A stretch of DNA of 62,486 nucleotides from Saprospiraceae bacterium (GTDB lineage: Bacteria > Bacteroidota > Bacteroidia > Chitinophagales > Saprospiraceae): the NCBI GenBank assembly GCA_022448945.1, contig JAKVCV010000006.1, positions 1 to 62,486 of the forward strand, given 5' to 3'. Within the stretch, counting starts at the first letter, position 1. Every line of letters begins with the position of its first letter. The notes below the pieces were generated by a model. That model ran no database searches, had not been told where the DNA came from, and saw nothing but the letters and a program-made list of their open reading frames with translations. The translations under genes were made by a program, and so were the position numbers. Of this stretch, positions 19,393 to 27,326 are shown piece by piece.

Positions 19393-20133
19393 ATGAAATT
19401 ATTAGTTTGTATAAGTCAAACACCTGACACTACAACAAAGGTCAAATTTGCTAACGGAGATACGGAATTTGATACAAATGGTGTACAGTTTATTATGAAT
19501 CCATATGATGAATGGTATGCACTAGTTCGTGCTCTTGAATTAAAAGAAGAAGTTGGCGGTTCTGTAACTTTATTTCATGTAGGCCCTCAATCAAATGAAA
19601 CAGTTATTCGTAAAGGGCTAGCTATTGGTGCTGATAACGCTGTACGTGTTGATTCAGACGCTACAAGTTCTATGTTTACTGCAGCTCAGATAGCAGCATA
19701 TGCTAAATCAGAAGGTTTTGATATTGTTTTAATGGGTAAAGAAACCATTGATTATAATGGCTCTGAAGTAGGGGCAATTACATCTGAATTACTTGATATG
19801 CCTTTCATCTCTTATGGCACAAAAATGGTCTTAGCTGGAAATACAGCAACTATTGACAGAGATATTGAGGGTGGTATAGAAATAGTTGAAGTAGATACGC
19901 CTTTTGTTTTAAGTTGTGCAAAGGGAATGGCTGAACAACGAATTCCAAATATGCGTGGAATTATGATGGCCAAAAGGAAACCTATTACTGTAATTCCAGC
20001 TATAGATGCACAAGACCTGGTTTCAGTAACTAAATATGAATATCCTGCCGAAAAAACCGGCGTCAAACTGGTTGATCCTGAAAACATGGATGAACTCGTA
20101 AATCTATTACATAACGAAGCTAAAGTAATATAA
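19393..20133 (+). CDS. etfB: Electron transfer flavoprotein, beta subunit
   Basis: 246 residues in the standard length range. It opens MKLLVCISQTPDTTTKV and has the AMP-binding/adenosine-loop region VLMGKETIDYNGSEVGAI. It pairs with EtfA to form the soluble FAD/AMP carrier that takes electrons from acyl-CoA and other dehydrogenases and passes them to ETF:quinone oxidoreductase. The etfA gene follows after 4 nt. It is preceded by a clear promoter. An acyl-CoA oxidase/dehydrogenase-like gene is at 59685, far away. Confidence 0.97.
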   Translation: MKLLVCISQTPDTTTKVKFANGDTEFDTNGVQFIMNPYDEWYALVRALELKEEVGGSVTLFHVGPQSNETVIRKGLAIGADNAVRVDSDATSSMFTAAQIAAYAKSEGFDIVLMGKETIDYNGSEVGAITSELLDMPFISYGTKMVLAGNTATIDRDIEGGIEIVEVDTPFVLSCAKGMAEQRIPNMRGIMMAKRKPITVIPAIDAQDLVSVTKYEYPAEKTGVKLVDPENMDELVNLLHNEAKVI

Positions 20134-20137
20134 TAAT

Positions 20138-21094
20138 ATGGCTGTTTTAGTATATGCAGAGAGCTTAACTGGCTCTATAAAAAAAGCTGCTACAGAAGCA
20201 GTTACTTATGGTAAATTAACTGCTCAGGCTTTAGGCACAGATTGTGTCGCTTTAACTATTGGAAAGGCAGAAGGTGCTGAGACTTTGGGTCAATATGGTG
20301 CTTCTAAAGTTTATAATGTTGCTGCTTCTGACGATTTTGATGCGCAATCTTATGCTGCAATTATATCCAATGCTGCAGAAGCAATTAATGCTGATGTAGT
20401 TATTTTTGTTCACTCATCATCAGGAAAATCTTTGGCTGGACGTGTAGCTGTACGAATGAATGCTGGACTTGTATCTTCTGTAACATCTGTTCCTTCGTCA
20501 GGAAGTTTTACTGTTAAAAAGGGTGTTTTTTCAGGTAAAGGATTTGCTACTTATGAAATTAGTTCTGCGAATAAGGTTGTAACAATAGCTGGAAATACCT
20601 TTCCACCTGAAGTTGTTGGTTCAGATGTTTCAGTTGAAACATTATCTGTTAATGTACCTGAATCTCGTGTTCGTGTAAAAAGTAAATCAACAGTTGATGG
20701 TGTCGTACCTTTGCCAGAGGCAGAATTAGTAGTATCCGCAGGTAGAGGGATGAAAGGTCCAGAAAACTGGAATATCATCGAAGAAATGGCTAATATTCTT
20801 GGTGCTACAACTGCATGTTCTCGTCCTGTTGCTGATGTTCATTGGCGTCCTCACCATGAACATGTAGGTCAGACAGGTGTTGCAATTAGACCAAATTTAT
20901 ATATTGCAATAGGCATTTCAGGTGCAATTCAACATTTAGCAGGTGTTAACCAGTCAAAAGTTATAGTAGTGATAAACAAAGATCCTGAGGCTCCTTTCTT
21001 TAAGGCTGCAGATTACGGTATAGTTGGTGACTTATTTGATGTTGTACCTCGACTTAATGCTGCTCTAAAGAAATTTAAGGAAGCTCAAAATTAA
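20138..21094 (+). CDS. etfA: Electron transfer flavoprotein, alpha subunit
   Basis: 318 residues. N-terminal domain MAVLVYAESLTGSIKKAATEA. The C-terminal FAD-binding domain has AELVVSAGRGMKGPENWNII, ACSRPVADVHWRPHHEHVGQ, GVAIRPNLYIAIGISGAIQH and VINKDPEAPFFKAADYGIVG, all hallmark EtfA sequence. It is the FAD-holding partner of EtfB. The gene is followed by a 32-nt near-perfect palindrome before the ethanolamine-type operon, which may end the etf transcript. Confidence 0.97.
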   Translation: MAVLVYAESLTGSIKKAATEAVTYGKLTAQALGTDCVALTIGKAEGAETLGQYGASKVYNVAASDDFDAQSYAAIISNAAEAINADVVIFVHSSSGKSLAGRVAVRMNAGLVSSVTSVPSSGSFTVKKGVFSGKGFATYEISSANKVVTIAGNTFPPEVVGSDVSVETLSVNVPESRVRVKSKSTVDGVVPLPEAELVVSAGRGMKGPENWNIIEEMANILGATTACSRPVADVHWRPHHEHVGQTGVAIRPNLYIAIGISGAIQHLAGVNQSKVIVVINKDPEAPFFKAADYGIVGDLFDVVPRLNAALKKFKEAQN

Positions 21095-21131
21095 TATAGT
21101 ATAACTATTAATTTTTATTAAACAGTATTTT

Positions 21132-21163
21132 TAATGCTCAGGTAAAATTTTACTTGAGCATTA
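21132..21163. promoter_or_regulatory. 32-bp near-perfect palindrome between etfA and the amino-alcohol operon
   Basis: TAATGCTCAGGTAAAA on the left and TTTTACTTGAGCATTA on the right: 16 pairs with only one G-T pair and no separate loop. There is no T-tract right after it, so it is not a classic terminator in either direction, although it may work as one. Its place 39 nt before the permease start codon also suits an operator or an RNA control element. Confidence 0.6.
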
Positions 21164-21201
21164 ATTCTCTATCTATTTAATTAACTCAAATTTTCCTAAT
21201 T

Positions 21202-22578
21202 ATGACTGGAGAACATGAATTAAAACGATCATTAGGTTCTCTTATGTTATGGGGACTCGGCGTTGGATATGTTATATCTGGCATGTATTTCGGTTGGAAT
21301 CTTGGTCTTGCAGAGGGAGGAACGTATGGTTTAGGTATAGCAACAATTTTTGTAATCGTAATGTATGTAACATTTACATTAAGTTATACAGAATTGGCTT
21401 GTAGTATGCCTTCTGCTGGTGGAGCATTTGTTTACGCAAATAAGGCTCTAGGAAAAAAATTGGGATTTGTTGCAGGTATGGCCCAAAATATTGAATTTAT
21501 TTTCTGTCCACCCGCTATAGCTGCAGCAATAGGAGCCTATTTTAAACTATTTTTACCCGAATCATGGATACAGGGAAGCTATCAATTATTGGGGCTTAGC
21601 TTTAGCCAAGAAGCACTTGTAACTTTATGTATAGCTATAATTGCTTATGCCATTTTTACTTTTATAAATATTATAGGTGTTGAATCTGCTGCTGCTTTTG
21701 AACTGTTGGTTACATTAATTGCTGTTGCCGGCCTTATCTTATTTGCTACTGTAAGTATGCAACATTTCAAATTTGAAAATATCCACTCCAATCCACTACC
21801 TTATGGATATTGGGGAGTGTTTGCTGCAATACCCTTTGCGATGTGGTTTTTTTTAGCAATAGAATGTTTAGCTAATGTTGCTGAAGAAACAATAGAACCA
21901 CAGAAAAAAATGGTAGTTGGTTTTGGTTCTGCTATTGTTACTTTAGTGATTCTTTGTATACTTACATTCTCATCTTCCGTAGGTATTGGAGGTTGGGAAA
22001 AAGTCGTTTACGATGCCTCTGGAGAAGTTGTAGATGCACCATTACCATTGGCAATACAATCTATATTAGGTTCAGATCATATCATTTATTCAATTTTGAT
22101 TGGGATTGGGCTTATTGGTCTAATAGCATCATTCCATGGTATAATTTTAGCTGCAGGGAGGGCTACTTTTGAGTTTGGTCGAATAGGTTATGCACCAAAG
22201 ATACTAGGTAAAGTACATAAAAAATATAAAACCCCAGCCAATGCATTGGTCGTTAATGCAATTATTGGTGTTGTTGCTATACTTTCAGGAAAAACAGGAG
22301 AGATTATCACTATTGCTTGTTTTGGTGCATTAACATTATATATTATCTCAATGATTTCATTATTCAAATTGCGAAAAGATCAACCTAAAATGGACCGCCC
22401 TTTTAAAGTGCCTTTTTATCCTTTATTTCCTTTTTTAGCAATAATTATATCATCGATAGCGCTGGTTTCAATGGCCTTTTTTAATTATAAAGTTTTCATT
22501 GTTTATATTGTTATCATGATAATGTCATTTTTATGGTTTATAGTATTTCATAAAGAAAACAGTCAGACGGCTGTATAA
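21202..22578 (+). CDS. eat: APC-family amino acid / ethanolamine permease
   Basis: 458 residues, about 12 membrane helices, with the APC signature region at the start (LGSLMLWGLGVGYVISGMYF). The early run FGWNLGLAEGGTYG, then SYTELACSMPSAGGAFVYA, matches ethanolamine permeases best. It would bring a small amine into the cell with a cation. It is the first gene of the operon: the next gene starts 10 nt after its stop. The assignment to ethanolamine is supported by the neighbours. Alternatives are other small amines or amino acids. Confidence 0.85.
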   Translation: MTGEHELKRSLGSLMLWGLGVGYVISGMYFGWNLGLAEGGTYGLGIATIFVIVMYVTFTLSYTELACSMPSAGGAFVYANKALGKKLGFVAGMAQNIEFIFCPPAIAAAIGAYFKLFLPESWIQGSYQLLGLSFSQEALVTLCIAIIAYAIFTFINIIGVESAAAFELLVTLIAVAGLILFATVSMQHFKFENIHSNPLPYGYWGVFAAIPFAMWFFLAIECLANVAEETIEPQKKMVVGFGSAIVTLVILCILTFSSSVGIGGWEKVVYDASGEVVDAPLPLAIQSILGSDHIIYSILIGIGLIGLIASFHGIILAAGRATFEFGRIGYAPKILGKVHKKYKTPANALVVNAIIGVVAILSGKTGEIITIACFGALTLYIISMISLFKLRKDQPKMDRPFKVPFYPLFPFLAIIISSIALVSMAFFNYKVFIVYIVIMIMSFLWFIVFHKENSQTAV

Positions 22579-22588
22579 ATAAAATAAA

Positions 22589-23947
22589 ATGAAAAACAAA
22601 AAAGAGATCCTGGATTATATAAAGAATCATCCTGATTCGAAAGTTAAGTTAGCTATAACGGACATTGATGGTATTTTAAGAGGTAAAGTTATACGAAAAG
22701 ATAAATTTTATAATGTTCTCGAAGGTGGCTTTGGATTTTGTGATGTTGTTTTTGGATGGGACTGTGCAGATGTAGCATACGAAAATAGTTTATTTACAGG
22801 ATGGCATAGTGGTTACCCCGATGCACATGCAGTTGTAGATGTGAATACATTCAGAAAAATCCCATGGGAAAATAATCTGCCTTTCTTTTTGGCCGATTTT
22901 GAATCTGAAGACGGAGAAAGCAATTATGTATGCCCTAGAAAACTATTAAGAAAAATCAGAAAGGATGCTATAGATATGGGATATCATCCTGTTTTTGCTC
23001 AGGAATTTGAATGGTTTAATTTTGAAGAAACGCCAGATTCTTTTGCTGCAAAAGGATATCGGGATCCTAAACCAATGACTCCAGGAATGTTTGGGTATTC
23101 ATTATTACGGTCTAGCCTCAAACACCCTTACTTTAATGATCTCTTTGAATTACTTGAAAAATTTAATGTGCCATTAGAAGGCCTGCATACAGAAACAGGA
23201 CCAGGAGTATATGAAGCGGCAATACTTTATGGAGATGTACTTGAATCAGCAGATCGTGCTGTTTTGTTTAAATCGGCAGTAAAAGAAATTGCCTATTCAC
23301 ATGGCATTATAGCTAGTTTTATGGCTAAATGGAGCATGGATATGCCTGGTTGTTCAGGGCATGTACACCAAAGTTTATGGGATGCCCATAAAGTAAATAT
23401 GTTTTATGATAGTAATGATAAAAATGGAATGAGTGAATTGATGAAGTCTTATGTTGCAGGCCAGTTATATTGCCTTCCGTTTATCCTGCCTATGTTTGCA
23501 CCCAATATTAATAGTTTTAAACGATTGGTTGAAGGAGCCTGGGCGCCTACTACACTGACCTGGGCTTCAGATAACAGAACCACTGCTTTACGTGTTTTGT
23601 GTGGTGGGGAGAAATCTGCTCGTTTAGAAACAAGGGTTTGTGGATCAGATACTAACCCGTATTTAGCAATGGCAGCATGTTTGGCTTCCGGATTATATGG
23701 AATAAAAAATAATTTAAAGTTAACCCAATCTGAAACGGTTGGTAATGGTTATAAAGATTTTAGTAATGGCAGTTTACCTAATAGTCTGAGCTTAGCAACT
23801 AAAAATATGAAAGAATCCTCTGTTGCCAAAGAATTATTTGGTTCGGATTTTGTCGATCATTTTACTAGAACCCGCGAATGGGAAATCAGTCAATTTGCAA
23901 AATCGGTTACAGATTGGGAATTTAAACGATATTTTGAAATTATTTAA
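22589..23947 (+). CDS. Glutamine synthetase-family gamma-glutamylamide ligase
   Basis: 452 residues with the glutamine synthetase catalytic fold: EFEWF (139-143), ETGPGVYEA (202-210), SGHVHQSLW (256-264), NSFKRLVEGAWAP (308-320) and ARLETRV (344-350). The N-terminus (LAITDIDGILRGKVI) is the type seen in PuuA, IpuC and GlnA4 enzymes, and the NPSRV-like ammonia-binding start and the Tyr adenylylation loop of true glutamine synthetase are not visible. Such enzymes couple an amine to the gamma carboxylate of glutamate at the cost of ATP. In this operon the amine is likely ethanolamine or a related amino alcohol, giving gamma-glutamyl-ethanolamide. It should not be annotated as glnA. Confidence 0.88.
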   Translation: MKNKKEILDYIKNHPDSKVKLAITDIDGILRGKVIRKDKFYNVLEGGFGFCDVVFGWDCADVAYENSLFTGWHSGYPDAHAVVDVNTFRKIPWENNLPFFLADFESEDGESNYVCPRKLLRKIRKDAIDMGYHPVFAQEFEWFNFEETPDSFAAKGYRDPKPMTPGMFGYSLLRSSLKHPYFNDLFELLEKFNVPLEGLHTETGPGVYEAAILYGDVLESADRAVLFKSAVKEIAYSHGIIASFMAKWSMDMPGCSGHVHQSLWDAHKVNMFYDSNDKNGMSELMKSYVAGQLYCLPFILPMFAPNINSFKRLVEGAWAPTTLTWASDNRTTALRVLCGGEKSARLETRVCGSDTNPYLAMAACLASGLYGIKNNLKLTQSETVGNGYKDFSNGSLPNSLSLATKNMKESSVAKELFGSDFVDHFTRTREWEISQFAKSVTDWEFKRYFEII

Positions 23948-23950
23948 AAG

Positions 23951-25093
23951 ATGCATGATTTTAATACATTGGTTTCATTTTCATTTCCAACAAATATACT
24001 TTTTGGATGTGGCGCAGTGCGTTCATTAGGTCCTCATTTGAAAGATAAAGGTATGTCAAGGCCTTTGATAGTTACAGATAAAAATGTAGCGCAACTGGAT
24101 TTTTTTAAAAGTATTGTAAAAAATTTAGAAAATCAGGGCTTTAGCATTCAGGTTTTTTTTGATATACACAAAAACCCTGTAAAGTCTGATGTTTTAGCTG
24201 GTGGAGAATATTATATCAAAACCAATAGAGATTGTATTATAGGAATAGGTGGAGGAGCAGGGATGGATGTTGCAAGAGCAATTGCACTTAGAATAAATCA
24301 TCATAGAGATCTTTTTGACTACGATGATCTTGAAGGAGGTGATAAATATGTTACTGAATCCGTTCCTTATTTTGTAACAATTCCAACTACTTCCGGAACA
24401 GGTTCTGAAGTCGGAAGATCTGCAATTATTTCTGAAGATGATACTAAAAGAAAACGTATTTTGTTTTCTCCCAAGTTATTAGCTTCTCAGGTTTTTGCTG
24501 ATCCTGAATTAACCTATGATTTGCCACCATTCGTAACTGCCGCTACAGGCATGGATGCATTAACGCATAACATGGAAGCATATCTTGCTAAAGGCTATCA
24601 TCCTATGGCCGATGGAATAGCAATTAAAGCTATAAAGATGATATCAGATTCCATTGAAGATGCAGTCAATAATCCACGAAACGCTAAAGCAAGAGGTGAA
24701 ATGATGTTGGCATCCTTAATGGGTGCAGTTGCTTTTCAGAAAGGACTTGGAATTGTTCATGCTACTGCTCATCCACTTAGTACATTACTGGATATGCATC
24801 ATGGGTTGGCTAATAGTATGATGCTGCCATATGGCATGGAATATAATTTACCAGGTCTAGAGGATAAGTTTAAATTGATGGAAACAGCACTTGGAACAAA
24901 CAAATCAGTTTATAATTATTTACATGAACTAAAGTCTTGTTTGGGTTTACCTGACAAATTAAGTGATCTAAATGTGACAGTTAATCATCTTGACAGACTT
25001 ACTGAATTAGCATACAATGACTTTTGCTTACCTGCTAATCCACGTAAAGCCGGGAAAAATGAATTAAGGGAAATATATGAGAAAGCCCTTTAA
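23951..25093 (+). CDS. Iron-containing (group III) alcohol dehydrogenase
   Basis: 380 residues. It has the NAD-binding GIGGGAGMDVARAIALR segment, the IPTTSGTGSEVGRSAII region, and the metal-binding helix pattern GIVHATAHPLSTLLDMHHGLANSMMLP with its histidines, as in the Fe-ADH family. It oxidises a primary alcohol to an aldehyde with NAD(P). Its place between the gamma-glutamyl ligase and the aldehyde dehydrogenase suggests that the substrate is the hydroxyl end of a gamma-glutamylated amino alcohol. Only 3 nt separate it from the ligase gene. Confidence 0.92.
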   Translation: MHDFNTLVSFSFPTNILFGCGAVRSLGPHLKDKGMSRPLIVTDKNVAQLDFFKSIVKNLENQGFSIQVFFDIHKNPVKSDVLAGGEYYIKTNRDCIIGIGGGAGMDVARAIALRINHHRDLFDYDDLEGGDKYVTESVPYFVTIPTTSGTGSEVGRSAIISEDDTKRKRILFSPKLLASQVFADPELTYDLPPFVTAATGMDALTHNMEAYLAKGYHPMADGIAIKAIKMISDSIEDAVNNPRNAKARGEMMLASLMGAVAFQKGLGIVHATAHPLSTLLDMHHGLANSMMLPYGMEYNLPGLEDKFKLMETALGTNKSVYNYLHELKSCLGLPDKLSDLNVTVNHLDRLTELAYNDFCLPANPRKAGKNELREIYEKAL

Positions 25094-25118
25094 AATTAGC
25101 CATTAAAAAATATTAAAA

Positions 25119-25868
25119 ATGATTAAGATTGGTGTAGCATCTGCTTTTATGTATCCTGATCTGAATAGAGCTGTTTTTGGAAAAAAAACACTTTGTTATA
25201 TCGAAAAGGATATGGCTAATTACATAAGTAAATATAATGTTCAACCCATATTGATCCCAGATCTTACAAATAAAAATGAAAGAAACGCATTTTTAAATCA
25301 GATGGATGCCTTTGTATTTCAAGGAGGTAATGATATTGCTCCAGAAATGTATGGAGAAAGCCCTATTAATAACGGCCAATGGAAAGGAGATCCATACAGA
25401 GATGAATATGAACTGGAGATTATGGATTTTGCAATTAAAAATAATTTCCCTGTTTTTGGTATTTGCAGAGGCATGCAATTACTTAATGTTTATTTTGGAG
25501 GGAATCTTTATCAAGATATTATCACTCAAAAGCCAAACGCTATATTGCATCGTGATGCTAATAAATATGATCAGTTAATACATAGCATAGATATTCAAGA
25601 ACACAGTATCTTATTTAAACTTACAAAAACCAATAAAGCATATGTTAACTCTGTTCATCATCAGGGTGTTAAAGATGTAGGAAAGGATATTAGTGTCTTA
25701 GCAAATTGTACTGATGATCAAATAGTAGAAACTATTCAATGGAATGGTGCTCCTGAAGGTAAAGTGATAGGAGTTCAATGGCATCCAGAATTTTTTTATA
25801 ATAGTAGTACTCCATTATTTCAAACAGATTTATTGTTCGAACATTTCTTAAGTTATATAAATAAATAA
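25119..25868 (+). CDS. Class I amidotransferase-type gamma-glutamyl hydrolase (PuuD-like)
   Basis: 249 residues with the class I glutaminase triad: nucleophile C116 in FGICRGMQLLN, and H222 and E224 in QWHPEFF. The oxyanion/entry motif QGGNDIAPEMYG is the typical start of the PuuD/gamma-Glu-GABA hydrolase group. It should cut the gamma-glutamyl amide bond, returning glutamate. In this context the proposed substrate is gamma-glutamyl-glycine. The gene is 25 nt after the alcohol dehydrogenase and 1 nt before the aldehyde dehydrogenase. Confidence 0.88.
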   Translation: MIKIGVASAFMYPDLNRAVFGKKTLCYIEKDMANYISKYNVQPILIPDLTNKNERNAFLNQMDAFVFQGGNDIAPEMYGESPINNGQWKGDPYRDEYELEIMDFAIKNNFPVFGICRGMQLLNVYFGGNLYQDIITQKPNAILHRDANKYDQLIHSIDIQEHSILFKLTKTNKAYVNSVHHQGVKDVGKDISVLANCTDDQIVETIQWNGAPEGKVIGVQWHPEFFYNSSTPLFQTDLLFEHFLSYINK

Positions 25869-25869
25869 T

Positions 25870-27243
25870 ATGCAATTAATCAATCCTGCTAATGAGACTT
25901 TTTTAGGACACTTGGTGCAAGATAGTAGTGAGATGATACTAGAAAAGTACAATAAAGTAGTTCAGGCACAAAAAGAATGGAAAAAAGTTGGTATTAAGGA
26001 TAGAATACAATGGATATCAAAGTATAAAAAACTTTTGTTGCAAAATATAGATCATCTAGCACTTACTTTAACAGAAGATATGGGTAAACCACTATCTCAA
26101 AGTAAAGGAGAAATAAAAGGTGCGATGGGCAGGCTTGATTATTTTATTAATCACTGTGAGCAATATCTTTCTACAGAAACAGTTAATGTGAGTGAAACTC
26201 ATACGGAAATGATAGCTTATGAACCTCTAGGAGTAATTGCGAATATATCAGCCTGGAATTTTCCCTACAACATTGGTTTTAATGTATTTATTCCTGCCAT
26301 AGTAGCTGGAAATGGTGTATTGTATAAACCATCAGAATTTTGTTCGCGAACAGGGGAGAAAATGATATCACTATTGTTTGATGCTGGTGTGCCTAAAAAC
26401 CTTGTAAAAGTTATACAGGGAGGTGGTAAAACAGGTGCTGCTTTATTGGATCTCGATATTGATGCAGTTTATTTTACTGGTTCTCATAAAACTGGACAAA
26501 GTATATACAATAAGGTTGCATCTAAAATGATTCCCTGTCAATTGGAACTAGGGGGCAAAGACCCTTTGTATATTACAGCAGATAACGCTAATTTAATTTC
26601 TGTAGTTGATTCTGCTATAGAAGGTGTTTTTTGGAATAATGGGCAGTCCTGTTGTGCCGTAGAACGCATCTATGTTCATCATAGCCTTTATGATCAATTT
26701 CTTGATTTATTTGTTCAAAAGGTAAATGCAATGAAGATTGGAAATCCAATGGATGATGACACCTTTATTGGACCATTAGCAAGAAAACAACAGATAAATA
26801 TTTTACAATCCCAAGTTGATGACGCTTTAGCGAAAGGAGCCACAGTACTTACTGGAGGTAAAGCCTTAGAATGTAAAGGATATTATTATATGCCTACAGT
26901 TGTTTCTAATGTCGATCATACAATGAGTATTATGAATGAAGAATCATTCGGACCCATTATAGGTATTCAAAAAGTCGCAAGTGATGAAGAGGCGATAAAA
27001 TTAATGAAAGATTCAAAATTCGGATTATCATCTGCTGTTTTTTCAGACAAATACCAAACAGCAAAACCGATTTTGGATACAATGGATACAGGTACCGTTT
27101 ATTGGAATTGCTGCGATCGTGTATCACCATATACTCCTTGGTCAGGTCGCCATAATTCTGGTATTGGAAGTACTTTAAGTCATATTGGAATAAGAGCTTT
27201 TACCCAACCTAAAGCATATCAATTGAAAAGTTTTGAAAAGTAA
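25870..27243 (+). CDS. NAD(P)-dependent aldehyde dehydrogenase of the amino-alcohol operon
   Basis: 457 residues. It has the NAD fold with SAWNFPYNIGFN (N130), the general base E226 in LELGGKDP, and the catalytic C261 in NNGQSCCAVERIYV. It oxidises an aldehyde to the acid. It is the last gene of the five-gene run, starting 1 nt after the hydrolase. The expected substrate is the aldehyde made by the Fe alcohol dehydrogenase, with gamma-glutamyl-glycine as product. This is inferred from context; the enzyme family alone is not specific. Confidence 0.9.
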   Translation: MQLINPANETFLGHLVQDSSEMILEKYNKVVQAQKEWKKVGIKDRIQWISKYKKLLLQNIDHLALTLTEDMGKPLSQSKGEIKGAMGRLDYFINHCEQYLSTETVNVSETHTEMIAYEPLGVIANISAWNFPYNIGFNVFIPAIVAGNGVLYKPSEFCSRTGEKMISLLFDAGVPKNLVKVIQGGGKTGAALLDLDIDAVYFTGSHKTGQSIYNKVASKMIPCQLELGGKDPLYITADNANLISVVDSAIEGVFWNNGQSCCAVERIYVHHSLYDQFLDLFVQKVNAMKIGNPMDDDTFIGPLARKQQINILQSQVDDALAKGATVLTGGKALECKGYYYMPTVVSNVDHTMSIMNEESFGPIIGIQKVASDEEAIKLMKDSKFGLSSAVFSDKYQTAKPILDTMDTGTVYWNCCDRVSPYTPWSGRHNSGIGSTLSHIGIRAFTQPKAYQLKSFEK

Positions 27244-27299: not shown

Positions 27300-27326
27300 C
27301 AAAAAAGGAGGCCTGATGAGACCTCC
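27300..27326 (-). terminator. Terminator-like hairpin (minus orientation)
   Basis: Stem GGAGG / CCTCC around CTGATGAG (27307-27326), followed on the minus strand by a TTTTTT run (27301-27306). It lies 215 nt past the stop of the TrmH-type gene and 60 nt past the end of the aldehyde dehydrogenase gene. It may end transcription from the minus side. Confidence 0.5.

Follow-up and report, generated by a model that had tools for sequence, protein, structure and literature searches.

A five-gene operon of a Saprospiraceae bacterium with a predicted gamma-glutamylation route for ethanolamine

A group of five plus-strand genes was analysed at positions 21202-27243 of contig JAKVCV010000006.1 (assembly GCA_022448945.1) from a Saprospiraceae bacterium of the phylum Bacteroidota. 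The whole stretch of 62,486 nucleotides in which the group lies is referred to as the window. The genes encode a permease, a glutamine synthetase (GS)-family ligase, an iron-containing alcohol dehydrogenase (Fe-ADH), a Peptidase C26 hydrolase and an aldehyde dehydrogenase (ALDH), and they probably form a dedicated operon for ethanolamine catabolism by gamma-glutamylation. Gamma-glutamylation chemistry on some amino alcohol is very likely.

In the predicted route, the permease would import ethanolamine, a common breakdown product of membrane lipids, and the GS-like ligase would use ATP to attach the amine of ethanolamine to glutamate through the gamma-carboxyl group. The Fe-ADH would then convert the hydroxyl to an aldehyde while the amine is still masked, the ALDH would yield gamma-glutamylglycine and the C26 hydrolase would free glycine and restore glutamate. 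Neither cobalamin nor a microcompartment would be needed. The same chain from ethanolamine to glycine had been proposed in an earlier sequence-only reading of the window; conserved gene content, the family and partners of the permease, gene fusions and the lack of EutB and EutC matches all support it. If this is true, many Bacteroidota use ethanolamine without cobalamin, via enzymes that curated NCBIfam models do not name, and the order of the five genes, or a fused hydrolase-ALDH, would serve as a ready marker for the operon.

Gene content and layout

The open reading frame (ORF) list of the window confirmed the genes, positions and spacing given in the sequence-only reading: all five ORFs start with ATG and are separated by gaps of 10, 3, 25 and 1 nt. 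The family assigned there to each gene agrees with the Pfam and NCBIfam matches. The features are as follows.

21202..22578, plus strand: APC-superfamily permease, predicted ethanolamine uptake (458 aa; PF00324/PF13520; TIGR00908 over cut-off)
22589..23947, plus strand: GS-family ligase, predicted gamma-glutamylethanolamide synthetase (452 aa; PF00120)
23951..25093, plus strand: Fe-containing (class IV) alcohol dehydrogenase, predicted gamma-glutamylethanolamide dehydrogenase (380 aa; PF00465/PF25137; metal-site motifs)
25119..25868, plus strand: Peptidase C26/PuuD-like hydrolase, predicted gamma-glutamylglycine hydrolase (249 aa; PF07722; motifs; fusion in relatives)
25870..27243, plus strand: aldehyde dehydrogenase, predicted gamma-glutamyl-aminoacetaldehyde dehydrogenase (457 aa; PF00171; catalytic motifs)
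21131..21164, plus strand: terminator-like hairpin of 15 pairs between two upstream genes and the operon (consensus match only)
27307..27326, minus strand: terminator-like hairpin 3' of the operon, with its T run on the minus strand (consensus match only)

The permease scored 397.9 bits against the ethanolamine permease model TIGR00908 (curated cut-off 381.75). No other curated NCBIfam cut-off listed for the five proteins was passed; the ALDH list covers the best 25 of its 43. The ligase, Fe-ADH, hydrolase and ALDH fell under every cut-off listed and are therefore not named by any curated NCBIfam family. Four models were matched by the ligase, all below cut-off, including GlnA and gamma-glutamylputrescine synthetase (188 bits, cut-off 650). 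The hydrolase reached 93 bits with the PuuD-type model (cut-off 266) and the ALDH 219 bits with the PuuC model (cut-off 850). The top model was 4-hydroxybutyrate dehydrogenase for the Fe-ADH (329.5 bits, cut-off 500) and succinic semialdehyde dehydrogenase for the ALDH (342.3 bits, cut-off 521). The Fe-ADH carries the motifs DALTH and GIVHATAH, which we take to be its metal site, and the motifs of the hydrolase (GICRGMQ, WHPE) and the ALDH (LELGGK, GQSC) are presumably catalytic or nucleophile motifs. The second PDB match, 5dm3, is presumably Csal_0679 of Chromohalobacter salexigens.

By consensus matching only, seven terminator-like sites were counted between 19300 and 27600, against 3.7 +/- 2.3 in shuffles. 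The two genes upstream of the operon (19393-21094) are electron transfer flavoprotein (ETF) genes and were rejected as operon members, as the 15-pair hairpin intervenes. A search with both ETF genes (E <= 1e-15) gave no match in any of the 80 related loci described below.

Conservation of the operon in Bacteroidota

Named genomes were scanned with an alignment of the ligase, and 580 relatives were confirmed, of which the best 80 were retained as related loci, with ligases 61-69% identical to that of the window. Bacteroidota are named in 77 of the 80 titles; the three exceptions read Beijerinckiaceae (L048), 'uncultured bacterium' (L062) and 'bacterium' (L102). The permease, ligase, Fe-ADH, C26 hydrolase and ALDH follow each other in the order of the window on one strand in 41 of the 80 loci, a fraction that is not a prevalence, and 35 of these 41 show strict adjacency in the ORF set. 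Because this order recurs in related loci, the grouping of the five genes is more than chance. The search for it in other Bacteroidota was thus positive, with full-order loci including those of Chitinophaga, Pedobacter, Parapedobacter, Olivibacter, Solitalea, Cyclobacterium, Aquirufa, Ilyomonas, Limnovirga, Ferruginibacter and Flavihumibacter.

The other 39 loci comprise six with a fused or broken-fused hydrolase-ALDH gene, 11 with a partial set (several cut by a contig end), eight with permease and ligase alone or the remainder scattered, seven with a ligase without any other member in the same operon, and seven in which the ligase is clustered instead with a kinase-like protein and one of HAD type. 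Fusions were scanned for in 114 loci (the 80, 32 from the phylum sample described below, L026 and L030). Seven of them (L040, L062, L063, L065, L068, L030 and L130) encode a protein of about 700 residues with the hydrolase as its N-terminal part, which ties the last two steps of the pathway together. An apparently broken fusion was seen in L047.

Among 61 genomes of the family of the window, five, its own included, contain a ligase at least 54% identical. One of the other four has the full order (G024), in one the order is spread across two contigs and includes a fusion (G048), and two have the ligase and lack the remaining operon genes (G018, G006). Of the 296 genomes that make up the phylum sample, six have the window-type operon (its own genome, G221, G185, G093, G150 and G209). 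The contig titled Beijerinckiaceae (L048) carries a full operon of the Bacteroidota type and is probably mislabelled or from a chimeric bin.

Permease contexts, ligase lineage and the substrate

The permease is the strongest evidence on the substrate. The permease of the window and 54 ligase-linked permeases from the 80 loci were compared, leaving out sequences shorter than 420 aa and a second permease of L085. All 55 reached the equivalent of the TIGR00908 cut-off, which was calculated from the score of the window permease as E <= 4e-114. Thirteen of the 296 phylum genomes contain a permease homologue (E <= 1e-60), each in one copy. It is accompanied by the window-type operon in six, by EutB in four, by a cluster of GS, short-chain dehydrogenase (SDR), ALDH and glutamine amidotransferase (GATase) genes in two and by no recognised partner in one (G248). 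For 12 of the 13 homologues, the neighbouring genes either form a module for ethanolamine breakdown or look like one. In G158, G311, G272 and G307 the gene lies directly before EutB (EutC being Pfam-confirmed in G158 only) and its product is 40-44% identical to the window permease; in G123 and G217 it is the last gene of the GS-SDR-ALDH-GATase cluster. From these contexts we infer ethanolamine as the probable substrate of the operon. The EutB loci of the phylum with a permease homologue directly 5' of EutB (L123, L124, L125 and L126) are short, and the two permeases scanned, those of L123 and L124, pass TIGR00908.

The genome of the window, which is 99.15% complete, was checked for the classical route as well: neither EutB nor EutC gave a match, with the E. 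coli control positive in both searches. The gene gcvP is present, for glycine use. As the only further GS-domain match of this genome lies in a 730-residue frame, the ligase of the window is probably not the housekeeping GS. Across the phylum sample, eight genomes have EutB and 39 have a match to the ligase model. None of the six genomes with the window-type operon has EutB, which carries little weight given eight of 296 overall. Mutual exclusion of ligase and EutB was considered and rejected, as G158, G272, G307 and G249 carry both. Their ligases are of the kinase/HAD type described below and do not belong to a window-type operon; that of G249 is the weakest match (462 bits, in a 783-residue frame).

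The sequence-only reading had described the ligase as PuuA/GlnA4-like, and this description has to be revised. In a maximum-likelihood tree of 62 sequences, the ligase joins the ipuC-annotated L023, its relative L025 and the ligases of Legionella, Photobacterium, Burkholderia, L020 and L021 (ultrafast bootstrap, UFBoot, 100), and the eto-type and Streptomyces-like ligases fall apart from this branch. The eto-type comparison was the Marinovum plasmid operon L038, which by annotation has the gene order of Phaeobacter MED193. The ligases of Legionella lytica (47% identical to that of the window) and Photobacterium (44%) adjoin ALDH and Fe-ADH genes whose products are 49-54% identical to the Marinovum ones. 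By these identities, the two loci appear as a bridge between the ligase lineage of the window and the eto-type set. The alphaproteobacterial L020 (Rhodobacteraceae bacterium M382) and L021 (Pseudorhizobium flavum), with ligases 44% identical to that of the window, have an aminotransferase, a polyamine-type (spermidine/putrescine) ABC transporter and a dimethylformamidase-like gene as neighbours, a putative amine pathway yet to be assigned, so the wider ligase group is not confined to one pathway.

Several observations weigh against ethanolamine as the substrate. The window permease lies just 16 bits over the TIGR00908 cut-off, whereas two EutB-linked permeases reach 506 and 514 bits, which makes it a more distant member of the family. 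Four of the eight EutB loci in the phylum sample have no such permease beside EutB, and the cluster permeases of Allomeiothermus and S. meliloti give no TIGR00908 match. No enzyme of the operon is closely related to the known ethanolamine set (32-37% identity, and a hydrolase of another family), so specificity is not transferable by orthology. A strong ligase match (> 680 bits) was found in 34 phylum-sample genomes, six of them with the window-type operon; the remaining 28 encode a kinase-like protein (about 347 residues) and a hydrolase of the HAD-IIA type near the ligase. The ligase groups with an ipuC-annotated ligase, so the substrate may be alaninol or another short amino alcohol like it.

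This conserved three-gene kinase-like/HAD cluster was confirmed by tblastn in 35 of 35 tested loci (for example L132:7279-10549, L148:6831-10266 and L135:7022-10391), 28 from the phylum sample and seven named, and its ligases are 52-64% identical to that of the window. Kinase-like motifs were recognised by eye in the 347-residue protein (VFVDWNIGNFSV...DYDWF), which has no Pfam, NCBIfam or PDB sequence match and gave a poor structure prediction (mean pLDDT 45). Six of the seven named loci have, immediately upstream, an ORF of some 336 residues that resembles GS by eye. The cluster may represent an undescribed gamma-glutamylation system. Window-type ligases form one clade free of kinase/HAD ligases (FastTree support 0.91; UFBoot 74 in a reduced set); the separation of this clade is moderately supported, with the kinase/HAD ligases paraphyletic to it. 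Naming the substrate from ligase identity alone was rejected, given ligases 52-64% identical in another context, and it is the permease and the whole operon that must name it.

Another ligase context is possible in two Emticicia and one Cytophagaceae metagenome-assembled genome (L072, L095 and L103). There a window-type ligase occurs without the other operon genes, flanked by a gene with weak ATP-grasp matches and a GntP-family permease (by Pfam in L072 only).

That the same reactions serve a different amino alcohol, with L-alaninol, 3-aminopropanol or 4-aminobutanol yielding alanine, beta-alanine or gamma-aminobutyric acid plus glutamate, is unlikely, though several of the data fit it. Besides the branch shared with L023 and L025, the nearest non-Bacteroidota hydrolases compared (31-32% identity) come from these same two clusters, and the best models for the Fe-ADH and the ALDH, both below cut-off, are the 4-hydroxybutyrate and succinic semialdehyde dehydrogenase models named above. 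The TIGR00908 match and the pairing of the permease with EutB speak against it, and these amino alcohols are rarer in nature than ethanolamine. Moreover, no monooxygenase that would make alaninol, in its gamma-glutamyl form, is among the five genes, the only part of the genome searched for one.

A role confined to detoxifying ethanolamine or scavenging nitrogen, in which the hydrolase would act ahead of the oxidations or between them and not last, is very unlikely. The order of the genes does not give the order of the steps, and the Ipu pathway, in the portion of the published account consulted, has the hydrolase ahead of alaninol oxidation (PMC6776027). The hydrolase-ALDH fusions, however, fit a hand-over from ALDH to hydrolase, and an early hydrolase would reverse the ligase step or release a reactive aminoaldehyde. 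Polyamine catabolism of the Puu type, to which the matches with PuuA, PuuD and PuuC family models point, can be dismissed as highly improbable, as all these scores are far under the cut-offs, no PuuB-type gamma-glutamylputrescine oxidase is among the five genes (the part of the genome searched for PuuB) and an alcohol dehydrogenase would have no obvious role on a gamma-glutamyl-polyamine.

The operon most likely encodes a functional Bacteroidota version of ethanolamine catabolism through gamma-glutamylation, with enzymes from lineages other than the published set. A broader scenario is offered tentatively and is somewhat less probable than its opposite: that the route was assembled independently in Bacteroidota from a second lineage of each enzyme, that the permease is paired interchangeably in this phylum with EutBC, the Streptomyces-like GS-SDR set and the present module, and that the nearest paralogues of the ligase, found in kinase-like/HAD clusters of many Bacteroidota, are part of a second, undescribed gamma-glutamylation system.

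Comparison with known gamma-glutamylation routes

Published accounts of the gamma-glutamyl route, as far as consulted, concern Proteobacteria and Streptomyces (PMC10132767, PMC6529630, PMC9397018). No description of a Bacteroidota version of the operon was found in the open-licence literature searched, preprints not covered. Among plasmid records, 689 matched the window ligase, and ten of their neighbourhoods (one unannotated) were examined, together with five more places from other queries (one unannotated).

One close counterpart is the gamma-glutamylation ethanolamine pathway of C. salexigens, Agrobacterium and Phaeobacter MED193 (EtoVWX operon), which in the parts of the sources consulted likewise combines a GS-like ligase, PF00465 and PF00171 dehydrogenases and an amidohydrolase, and yields glycine and glutamate. 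The scheme for C. salexigens, from such a partial view, consists of a PF00120 ligase, a PF00465 iron-dependent dehydrogenase, a PF00171 ALDH and a PF05013 amidohydrolase (PMC9397018), and in Phaeobacter MED193 the corresponding operon proteins are described as induced on phosphoethanolamine (PMC10132767). This system has a TRAP transporter where the window has an APC permease, and a PF05013 hydrolase where the window has a PF07722 Peptidase C26, although the role of the two hydrolases may be equivalent. The enzymes differ as well, with only 34-37% identity of the window ligase, Fe-ADH and ALDH to the Marinovum, Paracoccus and S. meliloti sets. In the wider comparisons the ligase is 34-37% identical to eto-type and Streptomyces-like ligases, the Fe-ADH 34-37% to those of the eto-type, Legionella and Photobacterium loci, and the ALDH 32-37% to the eto-type and Streptomyces-like sets. 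The Marinovum ALDH is 49-71% identical to those of S. meliloti, Paracoccus, Burkholderia, Legionella, Allomeiothermus, Photobacterium and G038, and six Fe-ADHs (eto-type, Legionella, Photobacterium and Shinella) share 46-72% among themselves.

The Streptomyces GlnA4 cluster (SCO1610-1615) follows the same overall logic: in the account available in part, GlnA4 is a gamma-glutamylethanolamide synthetase and the later steps are proposed (PMC6529630). Clusters called Streptomyces-like here, a label that rests on gene content, have a short-chain dehydrogenase in place of the Fe-ADH, a class-I GATase in place of the C26 hydrolase and a ligase of another lineage (35% identity for L032). The GS-SDR-ALDH-GATase clusters of the phylum of the window share its permease family, at 57-60% identity (L032, L177 and L178). 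Eleven family genomes have ligases of 34-36% identity; in the six neighbourhoods examined, a homologue of the window permease (57-60%) lies beside the ligase in three, and SDR, ALDH and GATase occur together in two.

With the Ipu isopropylamine pathway the window shares the ligase lineage (37% identity to the ipuC-annotated protein) and a similar hydrolase (32%), but cytochrome P450 genes are present in both the ipuC cluster L023 and the similar L025, and there are none among the five genes of the window. The Puu putrescine pathway uses the same ligase, hydrolase and ALDH superfamilies; the five genes here include an alcohol dehydrogenase instead of an amine oxidase.

The sequence-only reading had considered a dedicated operon of this kind in Bacteroidota notable. 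The full chain of ligase, dehydrogenase, ALDH and amidohydrolase was earlier shown or proposed in Chromohalobacter salexigens, Phaeobacter MED193 and Streptomyces and is not a new kind of pathway. What is new is the Bacteroidota version, with a ligase and dehydrogenases 32-37% identical to the known set and a hydrolase of another family.

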